Below are positions 6,543-23,967 of a DNA stretch of 24,805 nucleotides, piece by piece. The DNA lies in IMG/VR virus record IMGVR_UViG_3300027797_001483, positions 1-24,805 of that record, one strand, 5' to 3'. A model generated the notes under the pieces. The model had not been told where the DNA came from, did not search any database, and saw only the letters and a list, made by a program, of their open reading frames with translations. How positions within the stretch are numbered: position 1 is the first letter of the stretch; each line of letters opens with the position of its first letter. This DNA comes from a virus. The translations under genes were made by a program, and so were the position numbers.

Positions 6543-7039
6543 AACAAAACACTGCCATACCACAGCTGGAAAAGCTGATGCAACAAGAATTTGACCAAAT
6601 CAAAGATAATCTAATATTCAGTGCCGACGGTCTTTACCATGTGTTTGACAGCTACACAATAACTCCAAAAAACAAAGAAAGTTTTGAAGTGGCCAGACCA
6701 CAGCGTGATGTCAAGACCTTTGGCAGTTTGCGTGTGGCACTGAGTTGGTGCATTGCCGACAAGTATAGACAGCTGGCACTGGCACACAGTCTACAGAATT
6801 TAGATCAAGAAAAACAACGTATCTACGCAGATATTGAGGTGCGTCAAGCTGTTTCAAAACGCATGCAGGATCCAGATCAAGCAGAATTTACCCAACTCAA
6901 GATCACCATGAAGAAAAACCACCTGTCCAGGGTGGAACAACAATTGACCAAATGTGTCAATTTGGCTAAATACTGGCAAATACAAGGATTCAATCGCGAT
7001 GAAACTGCACGAATTAGACCAACACAATCAACAAGATAA
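6539..7039 (+). CDS. Helical phage protein, function unknown
   Basis: This is a 166-residue protein whose ATG overlaps the previous TGA, so it is likely coupled. It is rich in Gln, Lys and Asp, with long predicted helices in the C-terminal half (about 75-150). The N-terminal region contains a short beta-like segment with DGLYHVFDSYTI. No known domain or catalytic motif was recognised. The last 41 bases overlap the next gene, whose ATG lies at 6999. Context suggests a late virion-assembly protein, but this is a guess from position. Confidence 0.65.
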   Translation: MKQNTAIPQLEKLMQQEFDQIKDNLIFSADGLYHVFDSYTITPKNKESFEVARPQRDVKTFGSLRVALSWCIADKYRQLALAHSLQNLDQEKQRIYADIEVRQAVSKRMQDPDQAEFTQLKITMKKNHLSRVEQQLTKCVNLAKYWQIQGFNRDETARIRPTQSTR

Positions 7040-8306
7040 AGCCCAACAGGTGCTGCAGGCCAGACTGGGTCACACAGTATCTTTTGCCAATCTGACCATG
7101 CGCGAATCTCGTCACATGCTGTTGCGTGTGCGTGGCCTGCTCAGCGAGCACAGATCCACTACAGCAGCACATTCAAGCGAACGTGATCCTGCTTATCTCA
7201 AACTGTTGATGTTGGAATCGGGTCTCAAAGGGCGTCTGAAAGAAGTGGCTCCTGTTGTACCTGGAGCAGCTGGTGCTGTTCCTGTGGATACAAAAGATCC
7301 CAAGGTACAAGCTGCAATGAAGAAAAGCCAGGCCGGCCAAACCTTGAATCCAGATGAACAAAAGCTGGTGGGCATGGTTGCTGCCACTGCCATGCAAAAA
7401 GAATCACAACAGTCTCGCCGCAGGTTGCGCGAAAGCGAAATCCAGCAGGCACAGGTTGTGTTGGCTGCCCAAGACATAGTTGATCAAGTACAAAAGATGT
7501 TGGAACAGATCAGTGCCATGCAGTTCAAAGACCTACCGGCTCTGACAGATTCAATCAAGAACGACATGGGTGTTGACCAAGCCACTGCTTATCAATCTGC
7601 TACTGCTGCTGCACTTACACAACTGCTACAATCAGTGCAACAAGGTAAAACAGCATTGGAAGGTGCACAAGGAACACTGACAGGTCAAGAACCTGTTGTG
7701 CCAGGTCAAGAACCTGCTGCAGACATGGGTGCAGATCTCAATGCTGAACCTGCTGCGGACATGGGAGCTGATTTAAATGCTGAACCTGCTGCGGACATGG
7801 GTGCTGATGAAGAAGAGCCAACACCTCTTGGTGCTCCTGAGGCTCTAGGCCGTGACCGTCGCAACGCAGGCGGTGTGATGGAAGGTACACATACACGTAC
7901 CAATACATATCGTATTAACGGTCAAGATATGATTGAATATCTTGCCAATGAGACAGGTGCTCAAGTAGAAATGCGTGGTGATGATGTTGGTATCTTAACA
8001 GTTGATACTATTACATTTCCTAGGCTAGCAAAATTGGCTGCTGATTTAGCTCAACAAGGCAAAATCAAAGCAATTGCTGGTCCGGCAACCAGAGACATGA
8101 CAGGCAGAGCAGTGCCTGTTGGTGGAAATTATATGTCTGGTCCTAGTCGCCGTGACATTGGTGAAGCAACCAAAAAGAAAGGCAGCAAGCCAGACTTCTT
8201 AGATGTAGATAAGGATGGCGACAAGAAGGAACCATTCAAGAAAGCTGTTGGTGACAAGAAAGCAGCTCCCAAGAAAGGCGTAAATCCTTTTGCCAAAAAG
8301 AAATAA
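6999..8306 (+). CDS. Large late protein with tandem acidic repeats and a DxDxDG loop
   Basis: The protein has 435 residues. The frame is open from 6954, but ATG 6999 has AAGGA at 6984-6988 and yields the MKLHEL N-terminus typical of its neighbours. The N-terminal half (1-235) is mainly helical. Residues 238-273 are three copies of a 12-residue acidic unit (EPAADMGADLNA). A small globular domain follows (about 290-370), then a Lys-rich tail. Within it, residues 402-411 read D-V-D-K-D-G-D-K-K-E, resembling a calcium-binding EF-hand or Excalibur loop, lacking the Cys of Excalibur. No enzyme motif was found. It is probably a structural or virion-internal protein. The stop overlaps the next ATG (TAATG). 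Confidence 0.7.
   Translation: MKLHELDQHNQQDKAQQVLQARLGHTVSFANLTMRESRHMLLRVRGLLSEHRSTTAAHSSERDPAYLKLLMLESGLKGRLKEVAPVVPGAAGAVPVDTKDPKVQAAMKKSQAGQTLNPDEQKLVGMVAATAMQKESQQSRRRLRESEIQQAQVVLAAQDIVDQVQKMLEQISAMQFKDLPALTDSIKNDMGVDQATAYQSATAAALTQLLQSVQQGKTALEGAQGTLTGQEPVVPGQEPAADMGADLNAEPAADMGADLNAEPAADMGADEEEPTPLGAPEALGRDRRNAGGVMEGTHTRTNTYRINGQDMIEYLANETGAQVEMRGDDVGILTVDTITFPRLAKLAADLAQQGKIKAIAGPATRDMTGRAVPVGGNYMSGPSRRDIGEATKKKGSKPDFLDVDKDGDKKEPFKKAVGDKKAAPKKGVNPFAKKK
7710..7817 (+). repeat. Three tandem 36-bp coding repeats
   Basis: Units at 7710-7745, 7746-7781 and 7782-7817 (the last diverging at its end) encode the 12-residue acidic unit beginning EPAADMGAD. The unit sits in the linker between the helical N-terminal half and the C-terminal domain of the 435-residue protein, and varies only at synonymous or near-synonymous positions. 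Confidence 0.85.
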
Positions 8307-9803: not shown

Positions 9804-10178
9804 ATGGCATATTCAGATAAAGTATTAGATCACTATGAGAACCCACGCAATGTTGGATCATTTGACAAAGGTGACCCAGATGTAGCAACCGGTATGGTTG
9901 GGGCACCGGCTTGCGGTGACGTGATGAAGTTACAGATCAAAGTTATCGATGGCGTTATTACAGATGCTCGCTTCAAAACATACGGATGCGGAAGTGCAAT
10001 TGCCAGTAGCTCATTAGTCACTGAGTGGGTCAAAGGGCGAACTCTTGACGAAGCAGCGACAATTAGAAATACTGAAATCGCTCAGGAACTCGCCCTCCCG
10101 CCGGTTAAAATACATTGCTCAATTCTTGCAGAAGATGCTATCAAAGCAGCAATAGCAGACTACAGAAACAAACACTGA
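9804..10178 (+). CDS. iscU: IscU Fe-S cluster assembly scaffold
   Basis: This is a 124-residue protein very close to proteobacterial IscU along its whole length. IscU builds [2Fe-2S] and [4Fe-4S] clusters from IscS-derived sulfur and iron. All cluster and catalytic positions are present: Cys37 and Asp39 in GAPACGD, Cys62 in YGCGSA, and His104-Cys105 in the KIHCS segment. The LPPVK motif (98-102) that binds the HscA chaperone is intact. AAGGAG at 9792-9797 precedes ATG 9804. Gmd follows 84 bases later and iscA after that, instead of the usual iscS-iscU-iscA order; iscS is 7 kb away. It appears functional. The high similarity to bacterial versions suggests acquisition from a host. Confidence 0.95.
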   Translation: MAYSDKVLDHYENPRNVGSFDKGDPDVATGMVGAPACGDVMKLQIKVIDGVITDARFKTYGCGSAIASSSLVTEWVKGRTLDEAATIRNTEIAQELALPPVKIHCSILAEDAIKAAIADYRNKH

Positions 10179-10262
10179 TGATGCATTCGAATTTTAATCT
10201 AGTGTTACCTGTGTACGGACAGAATCTAGAATAGATAATTCATCAAATTGATAACGGGAAAT

Positions 10263-11246
10263 ATGAAGAAAATTGCATTTGTTACAGGTATGACCGGACA
10301 AGATGGTCCATATCTTGCCAAACTACTTTTGGAAAAAGATTATAAGGTTTATGGACTGGTCAGACGTTACTCAAACCCAAATTTAGATAATATAAAATTT
10401 CTAGGCATTGAAAATGAAGTGGAGCTGATCACCGGAGACATTACAGATGATGGCTGTATGTACCACTTGGTTAAGAGCCTGAGGCCAAATGAATTTTATA
10501 ACCTTGCTGCACAAAGTTTTGTTGGTGCCAGCTGGGATCTTAACAAAATAACCACTGAAGTTAATGCTGTGGGAGTTTTGAATATTCTAAATGCCATCAA
10601 GCAACACAATCCCAGTACCAAATATTATCAGGCCAGTACCTCAGAGATGTTCGGCAACAGCATTGAAATCTCTGGTGGCCAGCAAGACGAAACAACACCA
10701 TTCTGGCCACGCAGCCCTTACGGTGTTGCCAAGCTGTATGCCTATTGGATGACTGTTAACTTTCGTGAAAGTTATAGTTTACATGCATCAAACGGTATTT
10801 TGTTCAATCATGAATCGCCAATTAGAGGTAAAGAATTTGTCACACGCAAGATCACCGACGGTGTTGCCCGTATTAAACTTGGTCTACAAGACAAAATTGT
10901 TTTGGGTAACCTAGATGCCAAACGTGATTGGGGCTTTGCTGGAGACTTTGTTGAAGCCATGTGGTTAATGCTACAACAACCAGAGCCTGGTGACTATGTT
11001 ATTGCTACAGGTGTACAATACACTATTGGTGATCTGTTAGAACGTGCATTTAAATATGCCGGCATCGATGACTGGCAAAGCTATATTGAAACTAACCCAG
11101 CATTTGTGCGCCCTGCAGAATTACACAGCCTGTGCGGTAATCCTGCCAAGGCAGAATCAGTGTTGGGTTGGCAGCGCAAGACTGATTTTGACGGACTTGT
11201 TAAAATGATGGTCGAAGCTGATATTAAACGCTACAGCGGGAAATAA
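10263..11246 (+). CDS. gmd: GDP-mannose 4,6-dehydratase
   Basis: This is a 327-residue short-chain dehydrogenase of the GMD family, converting GDP-D-mannose to GDP-4-keto-6-deoxymannose, a precursor of GDP-fucose, rhamnose and related surface sugars. The NADP-binding GMTGQDG (9-15) carries the GxxGxxG glycines. The catalytic set is Thr126 and Glu128 in STSEMFG with Tyr153 and Lys157 in SPYGVAK. NHESPIRG (182-189) is the family's substrate loop. ATG 10263 is preferred over an in-frame TTG at 10248 because GGGA precedes it at proper spacing. It is shorter than the E. coli enzyme (about 370) through loss of an internal loop near residues 265-280, with the C-terminus intact. Gmd is known in other T4-like phages, where host-surface or fibre glycan changes are suspected. 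Here it separates iscU from iscA. Confidence 0.93.
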   Translation: MKKIAFVTGMTGQDGPYLAKLLLEKDYKVYGLVRRYSNPNLDNIKFLGIENEVELITGDITDDGCMYHLVKSLRPNEFYNLAAQSFVGASWDLNKITTEVNAVGVLNILNAIKQHNPSTKYYQASTSEMFGNSIEISGGQQDETTPFWPRSPYGVAKLYAYWMTVNFRESYSLHASNGILFNHESPIRGKEFVTRKITDGVARIKLGLQDKIVLGNLDAKRDWGFAGDFVEAMWLMLQQPEPGDYVIATGVQYTIGDLLERAFKYAGIDDWQSYIETNPAFVRPAELHSLCGNPAKAESVLGWQRKTDFDGLVKMMVEADIKRYSGK

Positions 11247-11250
11247 TTAT

Positions 11251-11577
11251 ATGATTACCATAACTGAAACAGCAGCAAAGAAGATAGTCAGCAACATTGT
11301 GAAACGTGGCCGTGGCCAAGGTATTCGAGTGGGTGTAAAGACCACCGGCTGTTCTGGTCTTGCTTATGTACTTGAATATCTGGACGAAGCTCCGTGTACA
11401 TGGGACTGGACCGAGTATGAGCGGGACGGTGCTCGAGTTTGGGTAAATGCCAAGGATCTGGCCTACATCGACGGACTTGAAATTGATTATAAAAGACAAG
11501 GTCTTAACGAAGGCTTTGATTTCGTCAACCCCAAAGAGGCAGCACGTTGCGGCTGCGGAGAAAGCTTTACAATCTAA
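11251..11577 (+). CDS. iscA: IscA A-type Fe-S carrier
   Basis: The protein has 108 residues and belongs to the IscA/HesB family, which carries iron or Fe-S clusters to target proteins. The three conserved cysteines are Cys34 in TTGCSGLAY, and Cys100 and Cys102 in the C-terminal CGCGESF. LNEGF and FVNP segments before the end match the family closely, favouring IscA over ErpA or SufA, though the distinction is modest. It has a Trp-containing stretch (about residues 48-62) at the place where family members vary. It begins 4 bases after gmd, and its stop overlaps the start of the exonuclease gene (TAATG), so it belongs to the same transcript. Confidence 0.92.
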   Translation: MITITETAAKKIVSNIVKRGRGQGIRVGVKTTGCSGLAYVLEYLDEAPCTWDWTEYERDGARVWVNAKDLAYIDGLEIDYKRQGLNEGFDFVNPKEAARCGCGESFTI

Positions 11578-12287
11578 TGATAACACAACGATATAATTAT
11601 GCTCCGCTCAGCCGGGAAACCGTCGACGGTAAAAGACATTACTGTTTGCCAAATGGCAAAAAAGTCCCCAGCGTCACAACAATTCTAGATAAAACCAAAA
11701 GCTCGGAAAGTCGAGAAGCTTTAGCTAATTGGAAAAAGCGTGTTGGCGAACAACAAGCCCAGCAGATCACCACAGAAGCTGCTAACCGTGGAACACGCAT
11801 GCACACATATCTGGAACAGTATGTGTTGCAGGATGAAATGAAGCCGTTACCTGGTAATCCATTTGCACACCCTTCGTGGTTCATGGCAGCTGAAATTATC
11901 TTGCAAGGCCTACAACATGCCACAGAATTCTGGGGCACAGAAGTTCCTGTATATTACAGTGGGCTATATGCTGGCACCACAGACTTGGTGGGAGTCTGGA
12001 AAGACCGTCCTGCCATCATGGACTTCAAACAAAGCAACAAGGTCAAAAAACGCGAATATATTGCAGACTATTTCCTACAGCTGGCAGCTTACGCATTGGC
12101 ACACGACGAAATGCACGGTACTGAAATCAACCAGGGCGTTATTTTAATGGCTGTACAGCCCAAACTCTTGGAAGATCAGACCTATACCAAACCACAGTAC
12201 ATGGAATTTGTGATAGAAGGCGACGAATTTAAGTACTGGAAAAACGAATGGATCAAACGTGTAGAGCTCTACTACCAGACAGCATAA
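11577..12287 (+). CDS. PD-(D/E)XK exonuclease (RecB/Cas4-like fold)
   Basis: The protein has 236 residues. The start at ATG 11577 (sharing a base with the iscA stop) is preferred to an in-frame upstream codon inside iscA. The nuclease signature is complete: His76 in RGTRMH, Glu122, Asp136 in GTTDLVG, the core Asp149-Phe-Lys151 in IMDFKQS, and the RecB-family QxxxY motif at Gln168-Tyr172. This is the layout of phage exonucleases and MGME1-like or Cas4-like nucleases acting on DNA ends. Only one Cys is present, so it lacks the Fe-S cluster of true Cas4 and AddB proteins. That matters because it sits directly downstream of iscA. Its likely role is DNA degradation, recombination or replication-end processing. 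Confidence 0.85.
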   Translation: MITQRYNYAPLSRETVDGKRHYCLPNGKKVPSVTTILDKTKSSESREALANWKKRVGEQQAQQITTEAANRGTRMHTYLEQYVLQDEMKPLPGNPFAHPSWFMAAEIILQGLQHATEFWGTEVPVYYSGLYAGTTDLVGVWKDRPAIMDFKQSNKVKKREYIADYFLQLAAYALAHDEMHGTEINQGVILMAVQPKLLEDQTYTKPQYMEFVIEGDEFKYWKNEWIKRVELYYQTA

Positions 12288-12290
12288 ATA
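12283..12290 (+). promoter_or_regulatory. T4-type late promoter element (CATAAATA)
   Basis: This is a 7 of 8 match to TATAAATA that includes the TAA stop of the exonuclease gene. It lies 23 bases before the tail-spike ATG at 12314, with transcription expected from about 12296. It switches the region from early to late expression for the spike gene. Confidence 0.65.
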
Positions 12291-12313
12291 CCTGATCAAA
12301 TAGGTATACGCTA

Positions 12314-13900
12314 ATGGCCATTGTACAAATCTCCCGCATCACAAACCGAAAAGGTTTGATAGAAAACTTACCGCAATTGGCCGGTGCAGAACTGGGCTAT
12401 GCAGTAGATACACGTCAATTGTTTATCGGTAACGGAACCTTGCAGGAAGGTGCACCTGTTATTGGCAACACAGAGATACTGACAGAGTTTTCGGATATTG
12501 CTGCACTCAGCAATTATGTGTACAAGGACATTGCAGTAGGGTATGCAGCACAGACAGGTCCCACTACCAGTGATCCTGTGGTGCGTACAGTTCAAGCCAA
12601 ACTGGACGATTTTGCAGATGTCAGAGACTTTGGTGCTGTAGGCGATGGAGAAACAGATGACACAGCTGCCATCAATCGAGCCCTGTTTCAATTGTATTGT
12701 GTAGCTGCCAACACGCAGATTCGTCGCACCTTGTATTTTCCTGCAGGCACTTACAAAATTACAGAAACCATTATTATACCCACTTATGCCAAACTGGTAG
12801 GTGAAGGCGCCAATTGTGCCACGGTGTTTCTGGATACCAGCAGTGATATTTCTAGCCTCAGTGCCTACGTGGCCAGATACGGTGACAGCCTGCAACAGAC
12901 TGGCGTAAACATCGGCAACAATGGTGCCACTGCTCCTGCCAACATTGAAATAAGTTCAATCACATTTGAAACAGCAGAAGCCACAGATGTATTCTTGGTA
13001 GAAGATGCCACACAATGCTATTTTGACAGCGTGAATTTTGTAGGTCCACTGACAGAGGTCGATATCACCAACAACACCAGCACAGACAACATAGCAGGTG
13101 TAAGATTTGCCAGCACAGCAGGTCTGGTGTGTAATCAGATCACATTTGACAAGTGTCGTTTTCAAGGACTCACATACGGTATTGAAACAGACCAGCAAGT
13201 TCAATCTGTCACTGTCAGCAACGGGGCGTTCGTAACCCTGTATCAGGGCATAGTGCTGGGCACAGGCACAGTGGTCAATGGTGGAGCAACTGGTTTCAGA
13301 GCACAGCAAAATCTGTTTGATGCAGTATATGCCGAAGGTATCATCTACGGAGATATCAATCTAAATGTTTCAGCCTACAATGCATTTTATGATGTAGGTA
13401 ATCACTACTCTTCTGGTCCGCAGACCGCTGTCATACTGTTTGACAGTGACAACAATGTGTCCATCACAGACATGTTCAGCAGAGACGATGTGGATGCACT
13501 GACACAGGCCAGAATTACTGTGACAGGATCATCCGCAACAACAGGCACACAGATTCAACTGGGACACTATGCTAGAGAAAATGGTAGAAGTTTTGTGTTG
13601 GGCAACAATCAGACCAATCAGACCATATTCACAACAGATTCTTCCAATTTTAAGGCCTTTCAAATGACCTATACCATTGTACGCGATGTCAGTGTACGAT
13701 TTGGAACCTTGACAGTGACCAAGGTCACTGCTGATGACAGTAGTCTGACCTTGGCCTACACAGATGATTTTACAGAAAATATCACAACTGGCATCACACT
13801 GGCTGTGACTCAGAGCACAAACTTGGCCTTGGTAAAATATTCCAGCACCAACAGCGGTATCATCGGAACTTTAACCTACTCACTTGCACATCTGGCATAA
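12314..13900 (+). CDS. Tail spike/fibre protein with pectate-lyase-type beta-helix
   Basis: The protein has 528 residues. Residues 1-50 form a short N-terminal module containing ELGYAVDTRQLFIGNGT, a pattern common at the start of T4-like fibre proteins and suited to virion attachment. At 103-117 VRDFGAVGDGETDDT is the hallmark opening of the pectate-lyase-3 superfamily, followed by a right-handed parallel beta-helix to about residue 390 and a beta-rich C-terminal part. Such spikes bind and often cut host surface polysaccharides. Catalytic residues cannot be placed from sequence alone. It has its own late promoter element, and the next ATG follows directly after its stop. Transcription from host early promoters is not evident. 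Confidence 0.88.
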   Translation: MAIVQISRITNRKGLIENLPQLAGAELGYAVDTRQLFIGNGTLQEGAPVIGNTEILTEFSDIAALSNYVYKDIAVGYAAQTGPTTSDPVVRTVQAKLDDFADVRDFGAVGDGETDDTAAINRALFQLYCVAANTQIRRTLYFPAGTYKITETIIIPTYAKLVGEGANCATVFLDTSSDISSLSAYVARYGDSLQQTGVNIGNNGATAPANIEISSITFETAEATDVFLVEDATQCYFDSVNFVGPLTEVDITNNTSTDNIAGVRFASTAGLVCNQITFDKCRFQGLTYGIETDQQVQSVTVSNGAFVTLYQGIVLGTGTVVNGGATGFRAQQNLFDAVYAEGIIYGDINLNVSAYNAFYDVGNHYSSGPQTAVILFDSDNNVSITDMFSRDDVDALTQARITVTGSSATTGTQIQLGHYARENGRSFVLGNNQTNQTIFTTDSSNFKAFQMTYTIVRDVSVRFGTLTVTKVTADDSSLTLAYTDDFTENITTGITLAVTQSTNLALVKYSSTNSGIIGTLTYSLAHLA

Positions 13901-14323
13901 ATGTGGCCACCAACCTACCAAGAAAGACTTGCTGATTGGGTTCGTCTTCGGCAAGCAGCAGCAGCACTTGAACAACCAGAACAGCTGATGTTGATTAACG
14001 ATTGGTGGTTCAGAGCCCCAATCGTTAATCATTTAATACTGTGGGAGAATGCAAGAAGCTGGCCCACACCCTGGCACCTATTGAACAACAATGGCTATTG
14101 TGAACTTGCAAGAGCCCTGGGTATAGTGTATACTATAATGCTAGTGGAAAATTACACAGATTTAAAAATCATACAGACAACACAAGACAATTTAGTCCAG
14201 GTCGATCATGGGAAATATATATTGAATTGGGCACCGGGCGAGATGTTAAATACCCACTCAACACCAATCCCCACTGTTAAGAACATGATCGACAGTTCTG
14301 AATTAGAAAGTTTTTTACAATAA
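13901..14323 (+). CDS. Trp-rich phage protein of unknown function
   Basis: This is a 140-residue protein whose ATG immediately follows the tail-spike stop. It is unusually rich in Trp (nine within the first 120 residues) with NDWWFRAPIVNHLILWEN as a striking central stretch. I recall similar short proteins next to fibre or RNR genes in T4-like phages but know no function. No catalytic motif, signal peptide or membrane segment is evident. A role as fibre partner is possible from position. A candidate sigma70 promoter for the downstream nrdA lies inside its coding sequence. Confidence 0.7.
   Translation: MWPPTYQERLADWVRLRQAAAALEQPEQLMLINDWWFRAPIVNHLILWENARSWPTPWHLLNNNGYCELARALGIVYTIMLVENYTDLKIIQTTQDNLVQVDHGKYILNWAPGEMLNTHSTPIPTVKNMIDSSELESFLQ
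14106..14134 (+). promoter_or_regulatory. Candidate sigma70 promoter for nrdA
   Basis: TTGCAA (14106-14111) and TATACT (14129-14134) are spaced by 17 bases, inside the preceding gene and about 190 bases before nrdA. The -10 region continues as ATACTATAATG, closely resembling the TATACTATAG of the promoter at 9328-9356. That supports an early promoter for the nrd/isc block. The -35 match is only 4 of 6. Confidence 0.4.
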
Positions 14324-14330
14324 GCGACCA

Positions 14331-16649
14331 ATGACAATTCAAGTACAAAAAAGAAACGGTAATCGTGAGCCTTTAAACATCGACAAATGGCAAGCACAAA
14401 TTACCAAGGTCTGCAGTGGCACAGCAGATGTAAGTCAAAGCATGATAGAAATCAAAAGTCAGCCACACTTTTATGATGGTATTACCACCAAAGAAATTGA
14501 TGAAATTACTCTACGTGCCATAGTTGACCTAATTGACGTAGAATCAAATCCTGATATTGGCAACGTCAACTATCAATACGTGGCAGGCAAGCAACGTTTA
14601 TCAATGCTGCGCAAAGATGTATATGGCTCCTATGAACCTCCTCGCCTGTATGAAATCGTATGCAAAAATGTAGCAGCAGGTGTATACACCAGTGAACTGC
14701 TGACTTGGTATACCGAAGATGACTGGAATCGCATGGATGACATCTTGGATCATGCCAAAGATGAACAGTATGGCTATGCTGCTATCGAACAGTTGATCGA
14801 AAAGTACCTGGTACGTAATCGCACCACACGAGAAACATACGAAACTCCACAAGTACGCTACATGGTTGCTGCGGCCACTGTGTTTCACAGCGAAGAGCCC
14901 AATTCGGCTCGTATAAAATACATCAAGGAATATTACAATGCGGCGTCTGACGGTCTTTTTACTCTTGCCACTCCTGTTCTGGCCGGGCTGGGAACTCCAA
15001 CTAAACAGTTCAGTAGTTGTGTTCTTATTCGTAGTGATGACAATCTTGATAGCATCTTTGCTTCAGGAGAAATGATGGCCAAGTATGCGGCCAAACGTGC
15101 TGGCATTGGCTTAGAGATTGGCCGATTACGGCCATTGGGCGCACCTATCCGCGGTGGTGAGATTCAACACACAGGCATGATTCCATTCTTGAAGAAATGG
15201 TTCGGTGATTTGCGTTCATGTTCACAAGGAGGTATTCGCAATGCAAGTGCTACAGTATTTTATCCCATTTGGCATTATCAGTTTGATGATCTTATTGTAC
15301 TTAAGAACAACCAAGGAACCGAGGAAACCCGAGTCCGTCATATGGATTATGGGGTTGTGCTTAGTGCTTTCTTCTGGAGACGATTCAAGAACAAAGAAAT
15401 GATCACATTCTTTGATCCCAATGAAGTGCCTGATCTCTATCAGGCATTTTATAGCAACACACGGCTGTTTGAAGAGCTGTATGTCAAATACGAAAAGCGT
15501 CGAGACCTACGCAAGAAAACAATGAGTGCTGAGGAAGTATTCAAAGGCGGCCTGCTAAAAGAACGTACAGACACAGGGCGTATCTATCTTGTGTTTATTG
15601 ACAATGTCATGAACCAAGGGCCATTTGACCCTGAGTATCATACAATCTATCAAAGCAATTTGTGTTGCGAAATCCTATTGCCTACTGTGCCATTCCAAAG
15701 ACTAGACGACGACAAAGGGCGTATTGCCTTGTGTACACTGGGCTCAATCAATTGGGGTGCGTTCCGTAACCCAGAAGACATGCGTCGTGCTTGTCGCATC
15801 TTGCATCGCAGCCTAAACAACATACTAGACTATCAGGACTTCTTGAGTATCCAAAGCAAACTAAGCAATGATGAAATCAGACCGCTTGGTATTGGCATCA
15901 CCAACTTGGCCTATTGGCATGCCAAGCGCGGACTAGAGTACGGCGAAACAGATGCGCTGGCAGAAGTTAAAAGTTGGGCAGAACATCAGGCATTTTATCT
16001 AACAGAAGCCAGTGTAGAGCTGGCAGAAGAACGCGGCAAGTGCTTGGGTTCAGACCAAACACGCTACGGACAAGGCAAGTTTCCTTGGGAATTACGTGCT
16101 GCTGGTGTCAACGAGCTGACAGACTTCGCCGCAGAACTTCCTTGGGAACCCCTGCGTGAACGCATGATCACATCTGGTGTACGCAATGCCACTGTGATGG
16201 CAATTGCTCCTGTGGAGTCCAGCTCAGTTGTTATCAACAGCACCAACGGCATTGAAATGCCCATGAGCTTGATCACTGTTAAAGAAAGCAAGGCAGGATC
16301 ACTTGTACAGGTTGTTCCTGAATATCAAAAGCTGAAGAATCGATATCAGCTGATGTGGGAACAAACTGACTGTGTGGGATACTTGAAGACCAGTGCTGTA
16401 CTTGCAGCTTATGTGGATCAAAGTATTAGTACCAATACATTCTATAATCCTGCACACTTTCCTGGACGTAAAGTGCCAACAACACTGATTGCCAAGAATC
16501 TAATGCAGGCACACCAATGGGGAATTAAAACTTTCTATTATAGCCTCGTGAATAAGCAAGGTAGCAAGGCTGCACCAGAAGATGCTCCAGCAATGTTGGA
16601 AGCCATTGACTTTGACAACGAAGAAGATTGCGAATCTTGCAAATTATAA
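14331..16649 (+). CDS. nrdA: Ribonucleotide reductase class Ia, large subunit
   Basis: This is a 772-residue NrdA, which reduces ribonucleoside diphosphates to deoxyribonucleotides using a radical supplied by NrdB. Residues 4-90 are an ATP-cone regulatory domain (VQKRNGNREPLNIDKW). The redox pair is Cys230 (SSCVL) and Cys468 (LCTLGS). The thiyl-radical Cys445 sits in SNLCCEI with Asn443 and Glu447. The phosphate-binding segment is APVESSSV. The radical-transfer tyrosines are Tyr736-Tyr737. The tail ends in CESCKL, whose CxxC is re-reduced by glutaredoxin or thioredoxin; a phage glutaredoxin gene lies at 20022. This spacing is tighter than the CxxxxC of E. coli. Length and motifs indicate a complete enzyme. 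In most T4-like phages nrdB follows closely; here two other genes intervene. Confidence 0.96.
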   Translation: MTIQVQKRNGNREPLNIDKWQAQITKVCSGTADVSQSMIEIKSQPHFYDGITTKEIDEITLRAIVDLIDVESNPDIGNVNYQYVAGKQRLSMLRKDVYGSYEPPRLYEIVCKNVAAGVYTSELLTWYTEDDWNRMDDILDHAKDEQYGYAAIEQLIEKYLVRNRTTRETYETPQVRYMVAAATVFHSEEPNSARIKYIKEYYNAASDGLFTLATPVLAGLGTPTKQFSSCVLIRSDDNLDSIFASGEMMAKYAAKRAGIGLEIGRLRPLGAPIRGGEIQHTGMIPFLKKWFGDLRSCSQGGIRNASATVFYPIWHYQFDDLIVLKNNQGTEETRVRHMDYGVVLSAFFWRRFKNKEMITFFDPNEVPDLYQAFYSNTRLFEELYVKYEKRRDLRKKTMSAEEVFKGGLLKERTDTGRIYLVFIDNVMNQGPFDPEYHTIYQSNLCCEILLPTVPFQRLDDDKGRIALCTLGSINWGAFRNPEDMRRACRILHRSLNNILDYQDFLSIQSKLSNDEIRPLGIGITNLAYWHAKRGLEYGETDALAEVKSWAEHQAFYLTEASVELAEERGKCLGSDQTRYGQGKFPWELRAAGVNELTDFAAELPWEPLRERMITSGVRNATVMAIAPVESSSVVINSTNGIEMPMSLITVKESKAGSLVQVVPEYQKLKNRYQLMWEQTDCVGYLKTSAVLAAYVDQSISTNTFYNPAHFPGRKVPTTLIAKNLMQAHQWGIKTFYYSLVNKQGSKAAPEDAPAMLEAIDFDNEEDCESCKL

Positions 16650-16664
16650 CTCAGGAACATATTA

Positions 16665-17279
16665 ATGTTAGAAACAATATGTGATATTATGATAGACGCT
16701 TACAAGCGTAATTGGATTACAAGTCGTGATGGTAATGTCAGCATTCGTCATCACGGCCGAGACCATTTCTATATTACACCAACTGGTGTGCGTAAGCAAA
16801 CTCTGCAGCCGGATCAGTTTAAAAAGATCAGTACCGATGGTTTACTTTGGAAAGAAGAACCTTATACTGATATCAGTGCCAATCTAAAACCCAGCGGTGA
16901 ATTGCCCATGCATCTGGGTCTGCAGAGAAAGATTGATACCGAAGTGCGAGTAATCATGCACTTTCACCCCACATATACCACCGCGGCAATGTACGCAGGT
17001 ATTGACCTACCGTGGCTACTCGACCAATTTCCGGAACTGAGTCGATATACCTCAGTTGGTCCAAATGTTGGTATATTACCACCTATCACACAAGACTTGG
17101 CTGATGCCTGTATCAAGAACATTGGATTAAATGCAGATACAGGTGAGATCAAGTACAACATCATTGGCATGGATAGACACGGCGTTGTTGCCGTTGACAC
17201 AACACCGTGGCGAGCTTATGAGCACATCGAACGATTGGAACACATTTGCAAGATAGTGCTTGCATCAGGAAAATATTGA
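16665..17279 (+). CDS. Class II aldolase/adducin-family protein
   Basis: This is a 204-residue protein of the class II aldolase family, zinc enzymes that split or epimerise sugar phosphates (fuculose-phosphate aldolase, ribulose-phosphate 4-epimerase, MtnB dehydratase). The family pattern is intact: DGNVSIR (22-28) for phosphate binding, PSGE (76-79) with the catalytic acid Glu79, zinc ligands His99 and His101 in HFHPTYT, and His172 in MDRHGVV. The exact substrate cannot be told. AGGAA precedes ATG 16665. It lies between nrdA and iscS, 15 bases after nrdA, and iscS follows one base after its stop. It is probably co-transcribed with them. It is an unusual metabolic cargo for a phage RNR operon. 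Confidence 0.85.
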
Positions 17280-17280
17280 C

Positions 17281-18510
17281 ATGAGTTATGTAATAGATCA
17301 CACAAAATATCCAGTATATTTAGATTACAGTTCAACCACGCCCATGGACCCCTTGGTAGTAGATGCTATGATTCCCTACATGCGTGAGCAGTTTGGAAAT
17401 CCTGCATCACGTAGCCATGCCTATGGATGGACGGCAGAAGAGGCAGTTGAAAATGCCAGAACTCAGGTGGCCCTACTAGTAGGTGCCGATCCTAGAGAAA
17501 TTGTTTGGACCAGTGGTGCTACCGAAAGCAACAACTTGGCCATCAAAGGAGCTGCTCATTTCTACAAGGAAAAGGGCAAGCACATCATTACTGTAAAAAC
17601 TGAGCACAAGGCAGTGTTAGATGCTTGTCGTGAGCTGGAGCGTGAAGGTTTCGAAGTAACTTACTTGCCGGTATTGCCCAATGGCCTGATTGATTTTGAA
17701 GTGCTTGCAGCAGCCGTGCGTCCAGATACTATTTTGGCATCAGTAATGTTTGTAAACAATGAGATTGGTGTTGTTCAAGACATTTCAAAGATTGGCAAAT
17801 TCTGTCGTGACAAAGGTATTGTATTCCACGTGGATGCAGCCCAGGCCACAGGCAAGGTAGAGATTGACTTGCAAACACTGAAGGTAGATTTGATGAGCTT
17901 TTGTGCTCACAAGACCTATGGCCCCAAAGGCATTGGTGCCTTGTATGTGAGCCGCAAGCCTCGCATTCGTATTGAAGCACAGATGCATGGTGGTGGTCAT
18001 GAACGAGGTATGCGTAGTGGTACCTTGGCCACACACCAAATTGTTGGCATGGGCGAATCATTTAGACTGGCCCAACTACACATGCGAACAGAAAATGCAC
18101 GTATAGGTGCATTGCGTGACAGATTGTTGACAGGACTAGAACAAATTGAACAGGTCTACATCAACGGAGACATGAGTCAGCGTGTGCCACACAATCTCAA
18201 CATCAGTTTCAACTATGTGGAAGGCGAAAGCATGATCATGGCCTTGAAACAGCTGGCAGTGAGTTCAGGATCTGCTTGTACAAGTGCCAGCCTTGAACCC
18301 AGTTATGTACTACGAGCCCTGGGTCGCAACGACGAACTGGCACACAGCAGTATCAGATTTACTCTGGGTAGATACACCACTGAATCAGAAATAGACTTTG
18401 CCATTGAATTGATTCAACGCAAGATTGCTGGCCTAAGAGAACTTAGCCCGCTTTGGGAAATGTACAAAGACGGTGTCGATTTAGACACCATTCAATGGGC
18501 TAGTCATTGA
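17281..18510 (+). CDS. iscS: IscS cysteine desulfurase
   Basis: This is a 409-residue PLP enzyme that takes sulfur from cysteine for Fe-S clusters and tRNA thiolation. The start at ATG 17281 is preferred to an upstream TTG because AGGAAAA precedes it. It matches proteobacterial IscS throughout: LDYSSTTP near the N-terminus, [19 protein letters not shown], the PLP-binding Lys211 in AHKTYGPKG, and [13 protein letters not shown]. The persulfide Cys333 lies in [13 protein letters not shown]. The C-terminal segment [16 protein letters not shown], involved in IscU docking in E. coli, is kept. It is therefore a full housekeeping-type (group I) enzyme, not a SufS or a truncated form. It sits between the aldolase and nrdB. 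Confidence 0.95.
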
Positions 18511-18528
18511 CATACAGGAGAATATTAA

Positions 18529-19629
18529 ATGTCAAAAGCACAATACAACTTAAAAACTAAAACAGATTATCTAAATCGCAAGATGTTTCTGGATCCTGCC
18601 GGACCAGTTACAATTCAAAGATTTGAGGAGGTGCGTTATCCTAAAATTGCCAACTTTGAAACCACAGCACGTGGTTTCTTTTGGGTACCAGAAGAGATCA
18701 GTCTTACCAAAGATGCCAGCGACTTCAAAGATGCCAGCGATGCTGTCAAACATATCTTTACCAGCAACCTGCTGCGTCAAACAGCCTTGGACAGTTTGCA
18801 AGGACGCGGCCCTGCCCAGGTGTTTACACCTTGTGTCAGCTTGCCTGAACTTGAAGCTCTAATGTATAACTGGAGCTTCTTTGAAACAAATATTCACAGT
18901 CGCAGCTACAGTCACATTATCCGCAACATCTACAATGTGCCCAAAGATGTGTTCAACACCATTCACGACACTGAAGAAATTGTGGGCATGGCAAGCAGCG
19001 TGGGCCGGTACTATGATCATTTGCACATGATCAACTGCGAAAAAGAATTAGAAGTCCCTGTTAAGGAAAAAGCACACATCAAGGCAATTTGGTTAGCACT
19101 ACATGCCAGCTATGCACTGGAAGCATTCCGTTTCATGGTTTCATTTGCCACAAGTCTAGCCATGGTGGAGAATCGGATCTTTATTGGCAATGGCAATATC
19201 ATCAGTCTAATCCTGCAAGATGAACTGCTACACAAAGGTTGGACAGCTTTCTTGATCAACCAGGTTGTAAAAGAAGATCCACGCTTTGCCGAAGCCAAGG
19301 CCGAGTGTGAAGCAGAAGTATATGAAATCTACAAAGATGTTATCCACGAAGAGAAAGACTGGGCCACTTACCTGTTTAAGATGGGTCCAGTGATTGGTCT
19401 TAACGCCAACATCCTACGCGACTTTGTGGACTACACAGCAGTAGATGCACTGAAACAGATTGGTATCAAGTACCAAGGAACAGCACCGCGTACTACACCT
19501 ATTCCCTGGTTCAACAAGCATACTTCAATTGACAAGAAGCAAACAGCACTTCAGGAAAACGAAAGTACCAACTACGTGATTGGAATTATGTCTCCTGAGT
19601 TAGATTACGATCAATTACCTAGCCTGTGA
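18529..19629 (+). CDS. nrdB: Ribonucleotide reductase class Ia, small subunit
   Basis: This is a 366-residue NrdB, which holds the diiron centre and the tyrosyl radical passed to NrdA. Putative iron ligands are Asp88 (ALDSLQGR), Glu119, His123, Glu198 (ALEAFRF), Glu232 and His235 (QDELLH). The radical Tyr127 is in HSRSYSH. Compared with E. coli, where the first helix pair reads ExxH, here one extra residue gives E-T-N-I-H (Glu119 to His123), so the ligand geometry deserves checking. An 18-base duplication encodes KDASDF/KDASDA at residues 61-72. The C-terminal tail ends with acidic residues and Leu, as needed to dock on NrdA. GGAG precedes ATG 18529. It is complete. Confidence 0.94.
   Translation: MSKAQYNLKTKTDYLNRKMFLDPAGPVTIQRFEEVRYPKIANFETTARGFFWVPEEISLTKDASDFKDASDAVKHIFTSNLLRQTALDSLQGRGPAQVFTPCVSLPELEALMYNWSFFETNIHSRSYSHIIRNIYNVPKDVFNTIHDTEEIVGMASSVGRYYDHLHMINCEKELEVPVKEKAHIKAIWLALHASYALEAFRFMVSFATSLAMVENRIFIGNGNIISLILQDELLHKGWTAFLINQVVKEDPRFAEAKAECEAEVYEIYKDVIHEEKDWATYLFKMGPVIGLNANILRDFVDYTAVDALKQIGIKYQGTAPRTTPIPWFNKHTSIDKKQTALQENESTNYVIGIMSPELDYDQLPSL
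18709..18740 (+). repeat. Short direct repeat inside nrdB
   Basis: Fourteen identical bases (AAAGATGCCAGCGA) occur at 18709-18722 and 18727-18740, an 18-base period. They duplicate the peptide KDASD within residues 61-72 of NrdB. Exact nucleotide identity suggests a fairly recent in-frame duplication. Confidence 0.8.
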
Positions 19630-20021: not shown

Positions 20022-20264
20022 ATGTTAACAATATACACAAAAGATGATTGTCCATATTGCGATCGGGCAAAAGCACTATTAGAAAGTCGAGGTATCGAAT
20101 ACACCACAGTCAATGTAGGTATACGCACAGAAGCCCGTGAATTTTTAGTAGATCAAGGCCTGCGTAGTGTACCACAGGTCTTCAATGGCACAACACTTAT
20201 TCCGGGCGGCTATCAGGGTCTAGCTGCTCAAACAGAAGAATTTTGGACCCAACTTAAAGGATAA
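20022..20264 (+). CDS. Glutaredoxin
   Basis: This is an 80-residue thioredoxin-fold protein with the glutaredoxin active site Cys10-Pro-Tyr-Cys13, the cis-proline Pro51 in SVPQVF, and the GG pair at 62-63 of the glutathione site. It shuttles electrons from glutathione or host reductases to disulfides, most likely the NrdA CxxC tail. The dithiol site argues against a monothiol, cluster-carrying Grx, although it lies among Fe-S genes. AGGAA at 20012 precedes the ATG. It has its own strong promoter, and the next gene follows after 2 bases. Confidence 0.95.
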   Translation: MLTIYTKDDCPYCDRAKALLESRGIEYTTVNVGIRTEAREFLVDQGLRSVPQVFNGTTLIPGGYQGLAAQTEEFWTQLKG

Positions 20265-21401: not shown

Positions 21402-22370
21402 ATGAAACGTATTATCTCTGCGCTATTGCTAACTATAGCAATGGCACCAGCCTTTGCCTGGGAACCCGTAAAGCCCATCACTGTTGTGATTGGCAACCCA
21501 CCTGGTGCCGGCAACGAAATAGCATTTAGAAAGTTGGCCAGTATTGTTGAAAAACAAAACCCAAAAATCAACTTTATCATTCAAAATCAACCTGGCGCAG
21601 ACAGTGTGATTGCAATGAACAGTTTTGCCAAAGCAGCACCGGACGGGTATACTGTTGCACTTCCTAGTCATATGAGTACATTTGTCACCAACGATATCTG
21701 GCAGAAGTCTGTTAAGAAATTCAATTACGACGAATTTACTCCTGTAATGACAATTGGTAAGAGTCCGTTGGTTTTAGTAGCCCATGCCAAAAGCTCTGTA
21801 AATACACCCGAAGACTTTGTCAAGCGTATACAAGCAACAAAAGAACCTGTCAATGTGGCAATTGGTGGTGGTGCACATCGTACAGCATTTGAATATCTCA
21901 TGTTTAAAAACAATGGAAATGCTGACATGGTCAAAACCATCAACTTCAACGGTCCGCTGCAGGCAGTGACCAGTGTGGCCAAAGATGCAGGTGGTACCGA
22001 GTTTGGTATTATGCCTATTGCTGTAGCTAAACCTCTGGTTGAAGCTGGCAAGGTAAAGGCCATTGGATTCACTGGCACCCGCACAATGCCACAATTTCCT
22101 ACAGTGCCCTTGCTGCAAACAGTGGCACCGGGTATTGAAGTGTATGCTGCTTGGGCACTTGTATTACCACCCAATACTGCCCGAGAAATTGTTGATTGGT
22201 ATTTGAAACTGTTTGTACCGGCTGCACAAAGTAAAGAGTACCAAGAATGGATACATCAGCAGGTTGTATTCTTAGAAGATAAAGAATTAACACCTGCAGG
22301 ACTGCGTAGACAAATGGAAACATTACGCAAGACTTTTATGCCGGTGTTGGAAACTGTTAAATTGGATTGA
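21402..22370 (+). CDS. TctC/Bug-family periplasmic solute-binding protein
   Basis: This is a 322-residue protein, the typical length of Bug receptors for tripartite tricarboxylate transporters. Residues 1-19 are a Sec signal peptide with an AFA|W cleavage site. The mature part shows the family layout: a WEPVKPITVVIG start, PPGAGNEIAFR, the IQNQPGADSVIA strand and DGYTVALP, then ending ETLRKTFMPVLETV. These proteins bind carboxylates (citrate, tricarboxylates, amino or aromatic acids) in the periplasm and pass them to a TctAB-type membrane pair. No TctA or TctB gene is in this window. The ligand cannot be told. AAGGAAC precedes the ATG. The family is abundant in Burkholderiales, suggesting host origin. 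The gene heads a three-gene unit. Confidence 0.92.
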   Translation: MKRIISALLLTIAMAPAFAWEPVKPITVVIGNPPGAGNEIAFRKLASIVEKQNPKINFIIQNQPGADSVIAMNSFAKAAPDGYTVALPSHMSTFVTNDIWQKSVKKFNYDEFTPVMTIGKSPLVLVAHAKSSVNTPEDFVKRIQATKEPVNVAIGGGAHRTAFEYLMFKNNGNADMVKTINFNGPLQAVTSVAKDAGGTEFGIMPIAVAKPLVEAGKVKAIGFTGTRTMPQFPTVPLLQTVAPGIEVYAAWALVLPPNTAREIVDWYLKLFVPAAQSKEYQEWIHQQVVFLEDKELTPAGLRRQMETLRKTFMPVLETVKLD

Positions 22371-23676: not shown

Positions 23677-23967
23677 ATGCCAGCTGTAGCAAGACAAGGT
23701 GACGCCGGGGCTGTACATTGCAGTGGATACACAATTGCTGCCGGATCCCCGGATGTGTTTGTTGACGGACTTCCGATAGCTCGCGACGGTGATTCCAGTA
23801 CAGTACATCAAAAACCGCAAGGTAATAAATGTGTGCCACACACAAGTAAAATTATTGCCACTAGTGCTACTATATTTGTAAACAATCGTCCCATTGCTGT
23901 GGTAGGCGACAGATTGAGTGAGTGTACACAAATAATTCAAGGCAGTAAAACTGTCTTTATTGGATAA
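23677..23967 (+). CDS. PAAR-domain spike-tip protein
   Basis: This is a 96-residue PAAR protein, the sharp cone that caps the central tail spike and is loaded on the baseplate hub (T4 gp5.4 type). The repeated short strands with PIARDGD, PIAVVGDRL and VHC/PHTS His and Cys residues match the metal-bound PAAR fold. The start ARQGDAG is typical. A strong AGGAG site and a late promoter element precede it. The following large gene starts 4 bases after its stop, consistent with a late baseplate or tail operon. Confidence 0.9.
   Translation: MPAVARQGDAGAVHCSGYTIAAGSPDVFVDGLPIARDGDSSTVHQKPQGNKCVPHTSKIIATSATIFVNNRPIAVVGDRLSECTQIIQGSKTVFIG

Follow-up and report, generated by a model that had tools for sequence, protein, structure and literature searches.

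The stretch of DNA analyzed here (the window) is the entire IMG/VR virus record IMGVR_UViG_3300027797_001483, which is 24,805 bases long and a fragment of a larger genome. It encodes three proteins of iron-sulfur (Fe-S) cluster assembly: the scaffold IscU, the A-type carrier IscA and the cysteine desulfurase IscS. We propose, with a probability of roughly 0.6, that this trio supplements the host iron-sulfur cluster (ISC) system to feed radical S-adenosylmethionine (radical-SAM) enzymes of the phage, and that it combines an old IscU/IscA module with an IscS acquired later from a host. In many relatives of the window the iscU gene is interrupted, and these interruptions matter more than the trio. 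Their sequences give us high confidence that iscU in this phage group is targeted by a mobile cassette that combines an HNH homing endonuclease with a minimal translational bypass element, in which a Gly-to-Gly hop would yield wild-type IscU and the insert would protect the gene. The three isc genes of the window are:

9804..10178, + strand: iscU, Fe-S scaffold, 124 amino acids, with Cys37/Asp39/Cys62/His104/Cys105 and LPPVK (TIGR01999; PHROG 8429)
11251..11577, + strand: iscA, A-type Fe-S carrier of a phage lineage, 108 amino acids, with Cys34/Cys100/Cys102
17281..18510, + strand: iscS, cysteine desulfurase family, 409 amino acids, with Lys211, Cys333 and the IscU-docking C-terminus (TIGR02006)

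All three reading frames are open and complete. A sequence-only reading of the window had held that the catalytic residues of the three proteins are intact and that IscU keeps the LPPVK motif, and alignment to the E. coli proteins (IscS being numbered from the ATG at 17281) recovered every residue named, including the pyridoxal phosphate (PLP) lysine Lys211, the mobile-loop cysteine Cys333 and the conserved C-terminus of IscS. It had also called all three close to proteobacterial versions; this holds for IscU and IscS (82% and 71% identity to E. coli, respectively) but not for IscA, which is 47% identical to the E. coli protein and 59% identical to its nearest betaproteobacterial match. Judged by the curated NCBIfam thresholds, IscS lies above the TIGR02006 equivalog cut-off (728.3 vs 643.2 bits), IscU above that of TIGR01999 (218.1 vs 192.4 bits) and IscA above that of the A-type-carrier subfamily TIGR00049 (92.9 vs 58.8 bits). 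Comparison with relatives indicates purifying selection on all three, the ratios of nonsynonymous to synonymous substitution rates (dN/dS) being 0.05-0.09 for IscS, about 0.07 for IscU and 0.05-0.12 for IscA. HscA, HscB, ferredoxin (Fdx) and IscR were correctly reported as missing from the window, as is IscX, so that IscS, IscU and IscA are all that this fragment holds of a complete ISC system.

The three genes do not form one operon. They span 8.7 kb among phage genes, with a gap of 1.0 kb between iscU and iscA and one of 5.7 kb between iscA and iscS, the order being iscU, a GDP-mannose-dehydratase-like gene, iscA, an exonuclease gene, a tail spike gene, nrdA, an aldolase gene, iscS and nrdB. 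Their distribution shows that IscU and IscA are a conserved phage module and that IscS is a rare addition: matches in IMG/VR number more than 590 stretches for IscU, more than 360 stretches for IscA and 38 loci for IscS. The synteny of iscU and iscA is kept over dozens of contigs; iscS is one of several optional genes in a variable gap between nrdA and nrdB, where most relatives lack it. The trio occurs with identical gene order in three other records, which represent one lineage in three samples (G002, G003 and G005). A further locus (L002) has IscS in the nrdA-nrdB gap and an IscA further along, and six more records encode IscS together with IscU (G013, G014, G015, G017, G020 and G023). At locus L012 iscS is followed directly by iscU beside the same structural genes, away from the nrd genes; this is an independent capture in the bacterial order. 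The suggestion that a full S/U/A trio would be unusual, and not already common in this phage group, stands in part: IscS is the rare member and the full trio is not common, but IscU plus IscA are common in the group, and other viral records carry the trio or IscS with IscU.

The phylogenies of the three proteins differ. The IscS of the window, 84% identical to that of Polynucleobacter, belongs to a phage-only clade of nine sequences (the window, L002, L003, L005, L007-L010 and L029; Shimodaira-Hasegawa-like approximate likelihood-ratio test support 100) that is nested in Polynucleobacter-type IscS, whereas in the IscU and IscA trees the virus branches stand apart from bacteria. These placements suggest that the trio was assembled stepwise, from an old phage IscU/IscA pair and a later, host-derived IscS. 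The scattered positions of the genes and their differing tree placements rule out that a host isc operon was taken up whole.

Some viral records have other metabolic genes near iscS. A serine hydroxymethyltransferase gene stands beside it in two cases (L029:2144-5090 and L010:1370-2518), and the L029 record also has a full-length sdhA-like flavoprotein gene plus gp23. The IscS matches in INPHARED are mostly unannotated or bacterial-looking contigs labeled as phage, and were rejected. Four such unannotated records (OR846914, OR848143, OR844991 and OR846590), which have bacterial-looking cysteine desulfurase and SufU genes, are probably host contigs and would mislead counts of phage iscS. The one well-annotated phage match there, C48C1, has IscU only.

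According to our proposal, a host-derived iscS would have been inserted between nrdA and nrdB after the IscU-IscA module was already present. During infection, phage IscS would take sulfur from cysteine, with PLP on Lys211 and a persulfide on Cys333, and would pass it to both phage and host IscU. IscA would carry finished clusters to apoproteins, and host HscA/HscB, ferredoxin and iron donor would complete the pathway. The main clients would probably be radical-SAM enzymes, which are numerous in these phages. The proposal draws on gene content, intact residues, purifying selection, phylogeny, synteny and the association of iscU with radical-SAM gene number; catalytic activity, the use of host chaperones, the clients and the host are its predictions. 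The trio points to a phage group that keeps an Fe-S scaffold and carrier of its own and sometimes acquires a host-derived sulfur donor; given the link to unusually large radical-SAM sets, infection may be genuinely limited by Fe-S supply.

Among the phage records searched there is no HscB, IscR or IscX, and among 44 of them there is no Fer2 ferredoxin. Hsp70 is present in 9 of the 44; one tested in a relative, a 40% tblastn match considered as a possible HscA, falls below the HscA cut-off and is DnaK. As to clients, the IscS-bearing records G007, G014 and G015 have 11, 8 and 25 radical-SAM genes, the partial record G049 has 15, and the closest relative of the window (G027) has one just upstream of the point matching the window start. 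The exonuclease beside iscA was also considered, as a Cas4-type Fe-S client, and was rejected as it has only one Cys. In records of 200 kb or longer, radical-SAM genes number 3-19 (median 12) where iscU is present (13 records) and 2 in each of the three that lack it (Mann-Whitney p = 0.005), in a comparison that is small, partly sampled through iscU and uncorrected for phylogeny. This limit weighs against the proposal, as do several other points. There is no radical-SAM gene in the window or in the short trio records G002 and G005, and a 166 kb record without iscU, possibly incomplete, has nine (G071). IscA is below the TIGR02011 IscA equivalog cut-off (126.9 vs 150.6 bits), and no cultured representative of the group with iscS turned up. 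Separately, four phages with iscU stand out for 17-25 radical-SAM genes per record (G015, of 183,842 bases, G068, G075 and G084).

Could the trio instead maintain host Fe-S enzymes of respiration and central metabolism while host synthesis is shut down, with phage clients secondary? The nearness of the phage proteins to host versions, as in IscS and Polynucleobacter, and an LPPVK motif suited to host HscA would fit, and IscS-bearing relatives do carry other metabolic genes such as the serine hydroxymethyltransferase and sdhA-like genes of L029. However, phage radical-SAM gene number follows iscU, and IscA has diverged into a phage form that is not adapted to host clients. We consider this alternative unlikely, though it is the strongest of the four weighed here. 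Fe-S supply in some form, one of the hypotheses of the sequence-only reading, still fits best, with the phage radical-SAM set rather than host enzymes as the likeliest client. A narrower idea, that the Fe-S output of IscS supports the phage ribonucleotide reductase, for instance by maturing a ferredoxin that maintains the di-iron cofactor of NrdB, takes its appeal from the order nrdA-iscS-nrdB in the window, in G002/G005 and in L002, and from the glutaredoxin gene nearby. It seems doubtful to us, since the nrdA-nrdB gap is a variable hotspot of unrelated genes, mostly without iscS, the 44 records have no ferredoxin, and the iscS of L012 adjoins iscU away from the nrd genes.

IscS is a general sulfur hub in E. 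coli, and the sequence-only reading had raised sulfur supply for tRNA thiolation or DNA modification. The IscS of the window does score 434.1 bits against DndA (TIGR03235), but the cut-off is 480; a PAPS-reductase/DndC-type domain occurs in 0 of 22 records, and in the same number MnmA has no full-length match, the MnmA-type matches being only partial and weak. With no supporting genes for either DNA phosphorothioation or tRNA thiolation, and with IscS co-occurring with IscU and IscA, we set both roles aside as very improbable. Least credible of all is host contamination or a chimeric assembly. Many public 'phage' records with IscS do resemble bacterial contigs, but 26 of the 32 window proteins have syntenic counterparts in an independent 81 kb IMG/VR record (G027), the nrdA-iscS-nrdB arrangement is repeated in at least 3 other metagenomes, and IscS belongs to the phage-specific clade; synteny and repeated independent assemblies thus rule it out for practical purposes. 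Two records from other samples (L122 and L147) each have 22 syntenic counterparts of window proteins. The gene for T4 gp23 is absent from the window itself, a fragment, and is found on larger records that share the iscU-iscA region or iscS (G034, G035, G039-G041, G014 and G019). The T4-like viral setting put forward from sequence is supported, and the window is read as a piece of a T4-like freshwater (lake) phage genome.

Parts of the trio have precedents, and each family already exists in PHROGs. Marine T4-like environmental viral genomes encode IscU and/or A-type carriers, linked to radical-SAM genes (Nishimura 2017, PMC5332604). Like the group of the window they have IscU plus an A-type carrier, many radical-SAM genes and glutaredoxin; unlike it they are marine, with no iscS in the main text, and their IscU is linked to Gammaproteobacteria/SAR86, while the IscS of the window suggests freshwater Burkholderiaceae. 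IscU and ErpA occur in HMO-2011-type phages (PMC9038755). A virus-assigned cysteine desulfurase gene, as in the window, has been listed as an auxiliary metabolic gene in rumen, gut and lake data (rumen viromes, PMC5704599; VIBRANT, PMC7288430; Lime Blue phages, PMC11041744); in the parts of these sources consulted, iscS appears singly and by annotation, without IscU/IscA partners or a phylogeny like the present one. The E. coli isc operon (iscRSUA-hscBA-fdx-iscX) shares with the window IscS, IscU, an IscA-like carrier and the same catalytic residues, but the window genes are scattered, have different phylogenetic origins and come without hscB, fdx, iscR and iscX, and the Hsp70 of a relative is DnaK. 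A paired IscS/IscU/IscA phage set with such a phylogeny was not found in the literature searched. As phage iscU, A-type carriers and iscS have each been reported already, the trio is an incremental addition.

The interruptions of iscU lie at one site, which in the window is uninterrupted and has no endonuclease neighbor:

9915..9920, + strand: iscU codons Gly38-Asp39, the interruption site in many relatives

The first sign was two records with iscU split over two frames. In such relatives Cys37-Gly38 is separated from Asp39 by a stop codon and then a gap of 3-7 nt, which ends at a second Gly codon. The split falls exactly after residue 38 in 11 loci; for the remaining 31 window proteins, about 1,780 matches gave two frame splits, both in one open reading frame. 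The scan for such alleles required only ...VGAPACG followed by TRR. All 78 interrupted alleles parsed have GGN directly before Asp39-Val40 in the downstream frame; the stops TAA, TAG and TGA all occur, and all reading frames are represented. Examples are L122, L129, L145, L176, L238 (G033), L330, L335, L372 and L426, with about 65 more IMG/VR loci. A non-redundant set, with 22 distinct combinations of take-off codon, gap and landing codon, had 75 interrupted against 114 intact alleles from phages; all 79 from bacteria were intact. A few endonuclease-linked alleles have out-of-frame inserts and no immediate stop (L651/L652, GGT-A-GGC-GAT, with a 1 nt gap, and L654/L656, GGT-TGTT-GGA-GAT); they too have the hairpin described below.

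Selection is seen on both sides of the break. Interrupted and intact alleles have ratios of nonsynonymous to synonymous changes (pN/pS) of 0.184 and 0.182, respectively, in the downstream half of the gene, and of 0.358 and 0.191 in the upstream half, all below 1. Purifying selection in both halves, equal in the downstream one to that of intact alleles, indirectly suggests that full-length IscU may be made by hopping: ribosomes would leave the take-off Gly codon, pass over the stop and gap, and land on the second Gly codon. Simpler accounts fare badly. Assembly error is ruled out by the rarity of splits in other window proteins and by the recurrence of the same site in many samples, and simple frameshifting or stop readthrough by the occurrence of all three frames and all three stops. 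Had the gene split in two, with translation starting again at Met41, Asp39 would be missing from the product, and the codons GGN-GAY-GTN are conserved with silent changes. A search for the same architecture in other genes gave 29 chance-like matches, mostly GC-rich out-of-frame stretches.

In all 35 distinct interrupted alleles the sequence leading up to the take-off Gly codon can fold into a strong stem-loop, with as many as 17 pairs, that ends at this codon. Mean folding energies of codons 25-38 are -25.0 kcal/mol in interrupted, -12.0 in intact phage and -17.6 in bacterial alleles, and only 0.3% of synonymous reshuffles are equally stable (mean z -3.7). In the interrupted alleles 95.3% of cells are paired, with 36 double changes vs 12.5 in shuffles (0 of 500 as high); intact alleles show 63% pairing and no covariation signal. 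Hairpin stability alone is not exclusive to interrupted alleles: among the 112 intact ones that have sufficient upstream sequence, two fold at -19 kcal/mol or below.

Just upstream of interrupted iscU there is usually a gene of about 200 codons. Its product is zinc-finger-like at the N-terminus and matches NUMOD3 and HNH weakly, HNH in 14 of 23 family members (best E 0.0014). Searches of the Protein Data Bank by profile and of folds with this family gave nothing significant, most of the weak fold matches being Cas9 HNH domains. With a 23-sequence query, the putative endonuclease accompanied 47 of 70 interrupted iscU genes in full and 8 of 70 as a remnant, and none of 112 intact ones (Fisher p = 4e-33); examples are L335 (-701 to -83 nt from the iscU Gly38 codon), L330:11014-11619 and L372:6833-7438. 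Searching with the endonuclease family alone, iscU adjoined it at 75 of 75 loci with enough downstream DNA; 38 of the distinct loci have the stop and hop insert. Eleven endonuclease-linked iscU genes are uninterrupted (L623, L624, L625, L655, L662, L665, L673, L679, L682, L686 and L687). These have no hairpin, which indicates that the hairpin tracks the insert and not the endonuclease, and most are substituted in the normally invariant active-site stretch (for example PSCG or GSPACG), as though sequence change were an alternative means of protecting the site. The interruption is scattered on the iscU tree, with 33 changes, at least 12 of them forced by well-supported branches, as expected of a mobile element. 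A variant endonuclease with the same N-terminus and a DUF559-type C-terminal nuclease occurs with 7-nt gaps (L445, L448 and L504).

This arrangement resembles that of T4 gene 60, in which take-off and landing codons are both GGA, the stop is UAG and a stem-loop lies on the 5' side, and whose insert is thought to protect against the endonuclease of the nearby HNH gene mobA (PMC11194080, PMC5009743, PMC3014915, PMC2988022). Interrupted iscU likewise has a Gly take-off codon, stop, gap, Gly landing codon, 5' stem-loop and HNH gene nearby, and the insert would in the same way protect it from its endonuclease. It differs in that the gene is iscU, the endonuclease lies upstream of it, the gap is 1-7 nt instead of 50 nt, about 22 natural variants occur in all reading frames, and the hop is here a prediction from sequence. 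We found no earlier account of an iscU bypass cassette in the literature searched. Whether T4-related phages use programmed translational bypassing in further genes was a question raised by a 2010 review of T4 (PMC3014915); the interrupted iscU alleles are naturally varied candidates, with built-in controls in the alleles that have the hairpin and the endonuclease-linked alleles that have neither insert nor hairpin. If the bypass is real, the gene 60/mobA arrangement would have its second natural case in phages, this time in another gene; the hops would be the shortest in nature, and the variants would number in the dozens.

Other unusual iscU genes were seen. An in-frame intein directly before Cys62 is present in L155/L153 (G038) and L144/L154, and L672 and L677 combine the intein with the Gly38 insert in one gene. 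Record G081 (524,565 bases) has two iscU copies (139785-140159 and 411085-411474), one of them broken by an in-frame TAG.

The remaining features of the window are these:

6954..8306, + strand: virion structural-like protein, supporting viral origin (PHROG 14154)
10263..11246, + strand: GDP-mannose 4,6-dehydratase-like epimerase, between iscU and iscA (PF16363; TIGR01472, 407 bits, just below the cut-off of 415)
11577..12287, + strand: PD-(D/E)XK exonuclease, overlapping the iscA stop codon (PF12705, weak; PHROG 298)
12314..13900, + strand: tail spike-like protein (PF12708; PHROG tail spike families)
14331..16649, + strand: nrdA, large subunit of class Ia ribonucleotide reductase, flanking the iscS hotspot on the left
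16665..17279, + strand: class II aldolase-like gene in the nrdA-nrdB gap (PF00596)
18529..19629, + strand: nrdB, small subunit of class Ia ribonucleotide reductase, flanking the iscS hotspot on the right
20022..20264, + strand: glutaredoxin (CPYC), T4 NrdC-like (PF00462; PHROG 22)
23677..23967, + strand: PAAR-motif protein (PHROG 281)

The exonuclease stays syntenic with iscA throughout the phage group, and a row of spike, h13901, nrdA, a variable segment, nrdB and glutaredoxin recurs among relatives. The phage probably infects a Polynucleobacter-like bacterium of the family Burkholderiaceae. A TctC-type tripartite tricarboxylate substrate-binding protein encoded at 21402-22370 fits such a host, of which it is a possible marker, this family being expanded in Burkholderiales.

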